A DNA stretch of 40,943 bases, from NCBI GenBank assembly GCA_003223115.1, contig QHXW01000125.1:1-40943 (forward strand). Reading direction: 5' to 3'. The DNA is from Acidobacteriota bacterium. Lineage in GTDB: Bacteria > Acidobacteriota > Terriglobia > Bryobacterales > Bryobacteraceae. This document shows, piece after piece, positions 9,484 through 12,517 of this stretch. The stretch's first letter is position 1, and the number at the start of each line of letters is the position of its first letter. Made by a program: the position numbers and the translations under genes. The notes under the pieces are model-generated. The model had not been told where the DNA came from. It saw only the letters and a program-made list of their open reading frames with translations, and searched no databases.

Positions 9484-9702
9484 ATGAGCAAGGAAGACAA
9501 TATTGAAGTCACCGGTGTCGTTCTAGAAAAGTTCCCCAGCGGTCTGTTCAGCGTACAACTGGATCACAATCGCGTTGTTCTGGCACACTTGGCGGGACGG
9601 CTGCGGCGGAACCGTATCCGCGTCTTGGCCGGAGACCGCGTGACGCTGGAACTCTCGCCGTACGATCTGACCAAGGGCCGGATCACATTTCGCCACAGAT
9701 AG
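9484..9702 (+). CDS. infA: Translation initiation factor IF-1
   Basis: A 72-residue S1/OB-fold protein of exactly IF-1 length. It reads MSKEDNIEVTGVVLEKFPSG, then VLAHLAGRLRRNRIRVLAGDRV and VELSPYDLTKGRI-like LELSPYDLTKGRITFRHR, matching IF-1 throughout. IF-1 sits in the A site of the 30S subunit during initiation. ATG 9484 has AGGAG (9475-9479) 4 nt upstream; the preceding TTG is too close to it. Relative to classic enterobacterial IF-1, Met/Phe positions are replaced by Arg-rich ones (RLRRNRIRV). It is not in a ribosomal-protein operon but behind a cold-shock gene; the genome may hold a second infA. Confidence 0.95.
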   Translation: MSKEDNIEVTGVVLEKFPSGLFSVQLDHNRVVLAHLAGRLRRNRIRVLAGDRVTLELSPYDLTKGRITFRHR

Positions 9703-9882: not shown

Positions 9883-11025
9883 AAAATTCTCCTTGTTTTA
9901 GGAACCAGACCGGAAGCCATCAAACTCTGTCCGGTTCTGAGGCATATGCGCGGCTGCGCCGCTGCATTCGAGGTGAGGCTGCGCGTCACCGCGCAGCCTC
10001 AGTCCTCGAGGCTTTCGGGTCACTCCCGACCATCTGGACGTGATGCGTGGCGGGCAAACGCTTGGAGAATCGACATCGCGAATGATGGCCGTGCTCGAGC
10101 CGGTGATCGCAGCGGAGTGGCCGCATATGGTGATTGTGCAAGGCGATACGACGACGACGCTCTGCGGGGCTCTCTCGGCGTTCTATCTCAGAATCCCGCT
10201 CGGGCACGTAGAGGCCGGCTTGCGCACCTGGGACCCCAGCAGCCCTTCCCGGAGGAAATGAACCGCGTGCTGACGACGCGCATGGCGGACCTGCACTTCG
10301 CCGCTACTGAAGGCGCCGCTCACAATCTTGAATCACAAGGCGTCGACCATTCCCGCGTCTTTGTGACCGGCAACCCCGGGAATCGACGCTTGTGCTCTTC
10401 GTCAAGAATGCGCTGGAAAAAGGGACGCTGCGGGGAACCGATTGGCCGCAGCTTGATCTGCGAAAGAAACTGATCGTCGTCACGGCGCATCGCCGTGAAA
10501 ACTTCGGCGCCGGCATCGAGAATATCTGCACGGCTCTGACGCAATTGGCTCATCGCGAGAACGTGCAGCTGGTGTATCCAGTCCACTCAAATCCCAATGT
10601 ACTGGGTACCGTCACGGCCCGGTTGGGAGGCCTGAACAACGTTTCTTCTTCTGCCACCGCTGGACTACGTCTCTTTTGTCGACCTCACGCGGCGCGCGTA
10701 TTTCGTGATTTCTGACTCAGGCGGAGTGCAGGAAGAAGCCCCATCCCTCGGTAAAACCGATTCTAAATCCTGCGGGACAAAACGGAACGGCCGGAAGCGG
10801 TGGCTGCGGCGACGGCAAGATTGGTAGGGACCGACCCCAACGACAATCGTGCGCGAGGCCGGGATTCTGCTGGACGATGAAGCGGAATACGCCAGGCGCG
10901 CGCGCGTTCATAATCTTTATGGAGATGGCGCCTCGAGTGGGCGGATGACAGAGGCAATTCATTCATTCTTCGAGGCCAGACGACGAGGAAACAATGTCGG
11001 ATCGGTTGCCCGAACAATTGCATAA
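9883..11025 (+). pseudogene. wecB: UDP-N-acetylglucosamine 2-epimerase (WecB family), heavily frameshifted
   Basis: The three forward frames together rebuild one WecB-type epimerase: KILLVLGTRPEAIKLCPVL, VRLRVTAQ, LDVMRGGQTLGEST, VIVQGDTTTTLCGALSAFY, IPLGHVEAGLRTWD, EEMNRVLTTRMADLHFAATE, VFVTGNPG, VVTAHRRENFGAGIENI, DYVSFVDLTRRAYFVISDSG, then SGGVQEEAPSLGK and GILLDDEAEYARRARVHNL. At least five frame changes occur (near 9980-10015, 10245, 10385, 10645 and 10755-10850), the stretch after VTAQ is missing several residues, and no start codon precedes KILLVLG. WecB interconverts UDP-GlcNAc and UDP-ManNAc for surface polysaccharides. No other polysaccharide gene is adjacent. The frame ends at TAA 11023-11025. 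Short open pieces inside it are fragments, not genes. Confidence 0.85.
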
Positions 11026-11068: not shown

Positions 11069-12517
11069 ATGGTCGAGCGCACAAAAAATCCGCAGCCAAC
11101 GCCGCGGCCGAAGAAACAACCCACTGATCCGGCGGAGAACCTGACGGCGATCCTATCGCAGAAGGTAGTTGGGCAGCCCGCTGCTACCAGGGTCATTGTT
11201 CCCTACATCCAGATGTTTCAAGCGGGATTAGCTCCGGAGGGGAGGCCTGTCGGTGTGTTTCTACTGCTCGGTCCTACTGGGACCGGCAAGGCCAAGACCG
11301 TCGAAGCGTTGGCGGACATCCTGCACGGCAGCGAGAAGAACGTTCTGAAAGTGGACTGCGGAGAATTCCAGATGGAGCACGAGGTGGCGAAGCTGATTGG
11401 CGCGCCCCCGGGATATCTGGGACACCGCGAGACACAGCCCATGCTGACGCAACAGAAGCTGAATGCGGTGACAACCGACCGCTGCGGATTATCGCTGGTG
11501 CTGTTCGATGAAATCGAAAAGGCCGCGCCTTCCCTCACCCGGCTGCTACTGGGTGTGTTGGATAAAGGCGTCCTGCGGCTGGGAGACAACTCCACCGTGA
11601 ATTTCGAAAAGAGCCTGGTGTTCCTGACCAGCAATCTGGGCGCTCGGGAGATGATGAAAGAGATCAACCCGGACTTCGGCTTCCAGGCGGGCGCCGGCAT
11701 GGAACGGCATGATCTCACCAGCAAGCTGCAGAACATCGCGCTGGTGGCAGTGCGGAAGAAGTTTTCACCCGAGTTTATCAACCGCATCGACTGCATCATT
11801 ACCTACCAGCCGCTGACGGTGGAATCGCTTTCGGCGATTCTGGATCATCAGATCTCAGATCTTCAAAATCACGTAAATACTCGTCTGGGACCGCGGTGCT
11901 TCACCATCGAGGTTCCGTTTGAGAGTCGGCAATGGCTGCTGCGGAAGGGGACCAGCCCCGAATACGGCGCGCGTGAACTGAATCGCACAATTCACCGCAA
12001 CCTGACTCAGCCGCTGGCGACGATGGTAGCCACCGGCCAGGTGGAGCCCGCTTCGCGAGTACGGGTGGAAACCGCCGAAGACGACGAATCGCTGGTCCTG
12101 CGCACTACGGGGCCGGACGAGGCCGAGATTCCCGCGCATCCCACGGTGCTGCTGGTAGACGATAATCGTGACCTGCTGCATTTTCTGGAACGCTTAATGG
12201 CTGAAGCGGGATGGAAGCTGCTGACGGCCGAATCGGCCAGCGGCGCGAGAAAACTGCTGACCAGCGAAAAACCAAACGCGGCGTTACTCGACTACATGCT
12301 GCCCGACGGCAACGGCGTTGAGTTGGGCGTGCAGTTGCGCCAGATTGCTTCGCGGATGCAGGTGATCGTGATGACCGGTTCGGTTTTGCCGCCGGAAGAA
12401 GAAGCCATCTGCGAGGAACACGATTTTCCAGTGTTGCGCAAACCGTTCCTGGCTTCTGACGTGATGAATCAAATCCGCAGCCGTCTCACTCCCGCAGCCG
12501 GAGCCGGGGCGCGCTAG
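11069..12517 (+). CDS. ClpB/ClpA-type AAA+ module fused to a C-terminal response-regulator receiver domain
   Basis: A 482-residue protein of two parts. Residues of about 20-335 form one AAA_2 (Clp D2-like) module: VVGQPAATRVIVPYI, Walker A region GPTGTGKAKT (68-77), pore-loop segment GAPPGYLGHRE (111-121), Walker B LVLFDEIEKA (143-152), sensor 1 FLTSNLGA, PEFINRID near the arginine finger, and sensor 2 YGARELNR, followed by the small ClpB C-terminal domain. Residues 358-475 are a receiver domain: acidic pair Asp364/Asp365, phospho-acceptor Asp408, Thr436 and Lys458 (VLRKPF). The Walker A Thr/Ser after Lys74 is Ala75, which should weaken Mg-ATP binding. There is no N-domain, ClpP loop or first AAA ring. 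A phosphorylation-controlled remodeller or ATP sensor is inferred. No histidine kinase is adjacent. An in-frame start at 10994 overlaps the wecB remnant and is rejected. Confidence 0.85.
   Translation: MVERTKNPQPTPRPKKQPTDPAENLTAILSQKVVGQPAATRVIVPYIQMFQAGLAPEGRPVGVFLLLGPTGTGKAKTVEALADILHGSEKNVLKVDCGEFQMEHEVAKLIGAPPGYLGHRETQPMLTQQKLNAVTTDRCGLSLVLFDEIEKAAPSLTRLLLGVLDKGVLRLGDNSTVNFEKSLVFLTSNLGAREMMKEINPDFGFQAGAGMERHDLTSKLQNIALVAVRKKFSPEFINRIDCIITYQPLTVESLSAILDHQISDLQNHVNTRLGPRCFTIEVPFESRQWLLRKGTSPEYGARELNRTIHRNLTQPLATMVATGQVEPASRVRVETAEDDESLVLRTTGPDEAEIPAHPTVLLVDDNRDLLHFLERLMAEAGWKLLTAESASGARKLLTSEKPNAALLDYMLPDGNGVELGVQLRQIASRMQVIVMTGSVLPPEEEAICEEHDFPVLRKPFLASDVMNQIRSRLTPAAGAGAR

Follow-up and report, generated by a model that had tools for sequence, protein, structure and literature searches.

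A conserved family of single-ring Clp-type AAA+ proteins, centred on Bryobacteraceae, with a C-terminal receiver domain as a possible phospho-switch

Two-component signalling is known to reach Clp machines through separate receiver adaptors. CpdR binds ClpXP and primes it when unphosphorylated (PMC8973945), and RssB is a receiver protein that serves as a ClpXP adaptor in trans (PMC7226468); in these systems the phosphorylation state of a receiver governs the Clp machine or the delivery of its substrates. Both act in trans, whereas the protein described here, termed Clp-REC, carries its receiver fused in cis at the C-terminal end of a Clp ring and would represent the shortest possible link of this kind. 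Receiver and AAA+ ring also share one chain in NtrC-type enhancer-binding proteins, but there the order is reversed and the ring belongs to another AAA+ clade with a GAFTGA motif; Clp-REC has neither GAFTGA nor, by Pfam, a DNA-binding domain. With ClpB/Hsp104, Clp-REC has in common the D2 large and small domains, the pore loop, the Arg finger and the sensors, but it has one ring, a C-terminal receiver and an extra FGF loop, and, as follows from its length, neither N-domain nor middle domain. ClpC/ClpA share with it the D2 ring, and the structures tie with those of ClpB in fold searches; Clp-REC differs from them in its one ring, its receiver tail and an FGF tripeptide in place of (L/I/V)-G-(F/L). 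Finally, the same bacteria also have D2-only Clp proteins with no receiver, with AAA cores 56–69% identical to that of Clp-REC in the loci L072–L092 and 44–55% identical in the same genome (L002–L006). What is new is thus the receiver–Clp fusion in cis, the parts themselves being known, and such a compact one-ring protein, carrying its own switch, would be a handy object for testing the gating of Clp motors.

The Clp-REC gene of the window, i.e., the whole stretch of 40,943 nucleotides analysed, stems from a soil bacterium (Table 1). Its frame is open throughout from the ATG at 11069 to the TAG at 12515–12517; a longer in-frame start exists at 10994, and the relative L013, a full-length homologue with 94% protein identity, starts at the equivalent of 11069, just 5' of which the window reads AGGGG. 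Pfam finds AAA_2 (122.1 bits, cut-off 27), ClpB_D2-small (54.9 bits, cut-off 21.9) and Response_reg (54.3 bits, cut-off 30.2) in this order along the protein, with scores far beyond chance, confirming the architecture proposed in a preliminary description, a Clp D2-type AAA+ module with a receiver behind it. The Walker A motif ending in GKA and the receiver residues were likewise found at the numbers given there, and the Walker B motif, pore loop and sensors, said to be intact, are indeed all present (LFDEIE, GYLG, sensor 1 TSN, GARELN), as is FINRID; the motif roles, with FINRID as the Arg-finger position and GARELN as sensor 2, are those that we presume from AAA+ biology. Silent codon differences greatly exceed amino-acid-changing ones (202 versus 28 against L013, 210 versus 24 against L014), which indicates that the gene has been under strong constraint until very recently; because of this excess and the intact frame, we rejected the view that the whole gene is a pseudogene.

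Table 1. Features of the Clp-REC gene and its surroundings in the window.
Feature	Position	Strand	Basis or remark
Cas6-like gene, PF10040, 47.9 bits	8008–8949	-	Pfam
IF-1 gene (the genome has two IF-1 matches)	9484–9702	+	upstream of the clp gene
Decayed, presumably wecB-like gene	9883–10980	+	several indels break the frame, which is open in L013
Clp-REC gene: D2-only Clp AAA+ module, then receiver domain	11069–12517	+	482 aa; ORF, Pfam, homologue L013
Walker A GPTGTGKA, residues 68–75	11270–11293	+	sequence and alignment
GCC (Ala) as codon 75, where Walker A has [ST] of GK[ST]	11291–11293	+	the 103 other rows that cover it have ACN (Thr)
Walker B LFDEIE, residues 145–150	11501–11518	+	family-conserved
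FGF tripeptide, residues 203–205, hypervariable loop after it	11675–11683	+	aligns with IGF/LGF of presumed ClpC-like proteins of the same genome
Receiver domain, about residues 361–470; Asp364/365, Asp408, Thr436, Lys458	12149–12478	+	Pfam, alignment, model
Histidine-specific methyltransferase-like gene, PF10017, 55.7 bits	12538–13752	-	convergent with the clp gene

The protein reached the cut-off of no named NCBIfam family among the matches listed (25 of 84). The best of these, TIGR03346 (ClpB), scored 219.7 bits against a cut-off of 1232.1 and spanned only profile positions 560–849 of 853, that is, the second ring, so that Clp-REC has neither the two AAA+ rings nor the score of a ClpB; the ClpA score was lower still (193.7 bits). 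Literature searches over titles and abstract openings, with the subscription literature largely outside, returned no description of a Clp-REC fusion. These results give no sign that the fusion is a common annotated family with a known function, which the preliminary description had named as a refuting outcome. The best PDB sequence match was again ClpB. An AlphaFold model (mean pLDDT 83.7, pTM 0.73) is of low confidence at residues 1–19, a short N-terminal stretch, at 206–212, directly after the FGF tripeptide, and at 476–482. In searches with this fold by Foldseek and VIA-align, the leading matches were D2 rings of ClpB, ClpC and ClpA, which could not be separated by score; among the matches listed, those to ClpC and ClpB D2 rings had Z values of 30.9 to 25.8, with ClpB at 31–38% identity and VIA-align Z up to 30.1. 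The ring is also of Clp and not of NtrC type, as had been claimed: the Clp-type domains found by Pfam and the absence of GAFTGA rule out an NtrC-like regulator. Sigma54_activat does pass its Pfam cut-off (26.2 versus 20.2 bits), far below the 122.1 bits of AAA_2, and we read it as an AAA+ cross-hit. The same applies to the four PADLOC matches (72.8 bits and less), for which reason a role in anti-phage defence was rejected; the PADLOC model match to Dodola DolB was weak (43.6 bits).

Homologues were drawn from the same genome, from a scan of GTDB genome contigs covering all prokaryote phyla and from 61 genomes (own included) yielding 30 loci. The contig scan used patterns from the window protein and hence reached close relatives only, not distant proteins of the same architecture; the best 80 of 143 relatives were kept (L013–L092). 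In total, 122 matching ORFs in 121 loci gave 106 distinct rows, of which 104 cover residue 75, two fragments being too short. Identical copies and the ClpB/ClpC ORFs of the own genome (L007–L009, all three with GKT) were removed before counting, and the loci L122–L128 from the phylum-wide genome search were left out of the rows. Alignment A1 joins the window to 36 of the 59 REC loci L013–L071 (37 sequences in all); A2 holds 17 of the 21 loci L072–L092 and was used for summary only. The REC-fused group comprises 66 distinct rows, L051, which ends inside the receiver, being counted among them.

Conservation within this group was observed to be extensive. All 66 rows are identical at Lys74, Tyr116, Asp147, Glu148, Asn189, Arg239 and Arg302, and all keep Asp364 and Asp408; Asp365 is kept in 65 of 66, Lys458 in 65 with a gap in the remaining one, and 61 of 66 have Thr or Ser at position 436. 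The family thus has GK[ST], the Walker B DE, the pore aromatic, the Arg finger and the sensors, with only the window reading GKA, possibly in error, and its receiver has the acidic pair, phospho-Asp, Thr/Ser and Lys of a response regulator. Such a pattern of residues is what one would see in a functional ATPase joined to a receiver that can be phosphorylated. In a tree of the AAA core, all 66 REC rows lie on one side of a single branch (support 95/98; recovered in 94% of 200 bootstrap trees) and 36 REC-less rows on the other. The fusion is real and conserved, and since all REC rows fall on one side of one branch, a single receiver gain inside a REC-less D2-only family would be the simplest account; the tree is midpoint-rooted and its long branches meet near outgroups, which leaves the direction of change unproved. 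In the phylum-wide search, 7 of 297 genomes (own included) passed E 1e-90, and three of the others matched via the receiver. The conserved family is centred on Bryobacteraceae. Two loci bear other titles, L016 (Nevskia soli) and L072 (Acidimicrobiia); in the tree their proteins fall among Acidobacteriota rows, and the assemblies may carry wrong labels. The own genome holds several REC-less D2-only Clp paralogues or fragments, on contigs C148, C467, C459, C256, C214, C531, C180, C181 and C284; some are split between matches or contain in-frame stops, which suggests that the D2-only Clp family has expanded there and is partly decaying.

The GKA of the window had been taken as a sign of an ATP-binding-impaired remodeller. 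At the family level this reading fails: the homologue comparison proposed along with it gave Thr at residue 75 in 103 of the 104 distinct covering rows (65 of 66 in the REC-fused group) and Ala in the window only. Thr in the homologues is one half of the refuting pattern that had been named, a sequencing error at the base being the other. Ala75 is therefore ruled out as a family trait; among the rows examined, no other genome has it, and it is no defining mark of the family, about which the GKA point is probably uninformative. Ala75 would be either a consensus error or a recent private substitution, and the latter would be expected to cripple this copy. We give about an even chance that base calling or assembly of the draft genome went wrong here and that the true protein has Thr75, as is ordinary for the family. 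The window codon GCC is one base from ACC, the commonest of the Thr75 codons (ACC 63, ACG 24, ACT 9, ACA 7 among the 103 rows) and the one used by the three loci nearest in identity (L013, L014 and L015). Moreover, T75A is the only private change of the window at columns otherwise invariant in the 66 REC rows, and the open frame and the excess of silent changes speak for a constrained gene. Against an error stands the finding that private changes are fairly frequent here: 16 other REC rows have one to four each at otherwise invariant columns, and one of these changes, P69L in L059, falls in the P-loop as well.

Somewhat short of even, in our estimate, are the chances that Ala75 is genuine and arose recently, impairing or abolishing nucleotide use in one lineage, be it as the onset of gene loss or as a dominant-negative subunit; the window copy may then have no function at all. 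The Walker A Ser/Thr is described as strictly conserved and Mg-coordinating (PMC9599734), and the adjacent wecB-like gene, decayed here and open in L013, indicates that genes of this locus can be lost. However, 59 of the 80 loci L013–L092, some of which end early, showed no wecB next to clp, so that losing it is nothing peculiar to this genome. The frame and the other ATPase and receiver residues checked are intact, and the terminal branch of the window (0.039, versus 0.0057 and 0.026 for its sisters) is only modestly long. If checked in the reads, the GKA detail would be a lesson in testing invariance before interpreting one residue of a draft genome.

For the family as a whole, the retention of ATPase, pore-loop and receiver residues across the 66 REC rows supports a switched unfoldase. 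We consider it fairly probable that these proteins are single-ring Hsp100/Clp unfoldases with the C-terminal receiver as a phospho-switch, possibly feeding ClpP. A histidine kinase, unlinked in most loci, would phosphorylate Asp408, and the phosphorylated receiver would alter ring assembly, substrate access or partner docking; an ordinary ATP-driven pore-loop motor would then thread the substrate, which would be either released or handed to ClpP through the [F/I]GF loop. Phosphorylation, switching, ClpP docking and the substrate are the elements that we infer here. The histidine-kinase control suggested earlier would hold in so far as the receiver carries the required residues. What weighs against a switched unfoldase is the scarcity of kinases nearby: a pattern test of limited sensitivity saw no histidine-kinase-like motifs in window frames of 150 aa or more, and ORFs with both kinase motifs lay near the clp gene in only three fetched loci, at 341, 774 and 3,982 bp.

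The evidence for the ClpP arm is divided. FGF is found in 62 of the 66 REC rows and IGF in the other 4; the 33 REC-less rows have FGF (29), IGF, FGY, FGL and MGF (1 each), and six of seven paralogue rows have LGF, the remaining one being a fragment without the tripeptide. Gly204 and Phe205 are invariant in the REC group, next to variable positions 207–214 (1.4 to 3.1 bits). In the alignment with the long Clp proteins of the own genome, IGF and LGF occupy this place in L007 and L009, and none is present in L008; from this feature and from general knowledge, we take L007 and L009 to be ClpC-like and L008 to be ClpB-like. The same genome has a ClpP gene on contig C543 (272.9 bits), and to our knowledge ClpB does not dock ClpP. 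The [F/I]GF loop is thus possibly a ClpP link, as judged from the alignment. Phe, on the other hand, is off the published docking consensus (L/I/V)-G-(F/L) at its first position (PMC8745299); FGY, FGL and MGF in three REC-less rows and the higher NCBIfam score of ClpB than of ClpA also count against this arm. That the receiver, C-terminal to the D2 ring, gates ClpP docking via the FGF loop upon phosphorylation, with a kinase switching degradation directly and without a separate adaptor, we regard as rather unlikely.

A ClpP-independent, ClpB-like disaggregase or remodeller, with the receiver as its switch and the GF loop serving another partner, is an alternative of real, if less than even, weight. 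It is favoured by ClpB being the best match in NCBIfam (among those listed) and in the PDB sequence search, and by Phe rather than Ile, Leu or Val at the first docking position in most REC rows; it is disfavoured by the absence of the tripeptide from L008 and its presence in L007 and L009, and by the invariance of G-F beside a hypervariable loop. That the receiver is a dimerisation or localisation module instead of a phospho-switch would agree with most fetched loci having no kinase-like ORF near the gene, but is improbable in view of the near-complete retention of Asp364, Asp408, Lys458 and Thr/Ser436 and of the two nearest kinase ORFs, which Pfam confirmed, at 341 and 774 bp in loci titled Pyrinomonadaceae. 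These are PAS-containing histidine kinase genes downstream of clp (L067, 7736–9355, 341 bp; L063, 8193–10847, 774 bp) and are candidate cognate kinases of the switched unfoldase. A further downstream ORF, recurring in 9 loci, looks receiver-like by eye and had no Pfam match in the copy checked (L035).

As to the neighbourhood, 58 of the 80 loci L013–L092 (the best 80 of 143 relatives) have an IF-1 gene on the same strand, no more than about 1.4 kb upstream of clp, namely, 40 of the 59 REC loci and 18 of the 21 loci L072–L092; several contigs end near the clp gene, which lowers such counts. The window copy scores 75.3 bits to the Pfam model versus 41.4 bits for the second IF-1 match of the genome, which sits in a cluster that, by eye, looks to contain adk, map, rpmJ and genes for ribosomal proteins. 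The gene between IF-1 and clp, which we take to be wecB-like, occurs at this place in 8 of the REC loci with IF-1 and in 12 of the L072–L092 loci with IF-1; in L074, wecB is present and IF-1 was not detected. The window seems to catch this gene in decay, and the genes flanking it that are shared with L013 remain open. A search of the window for close direct-repeat arrays gave none; L013 has a Cas6-like gene as well (57.1 bits), which is likewise on the minus strand and lies upstream of its IF-1 and clp genes. A PF10017-type gene is also found beside clp in L013 and L014.
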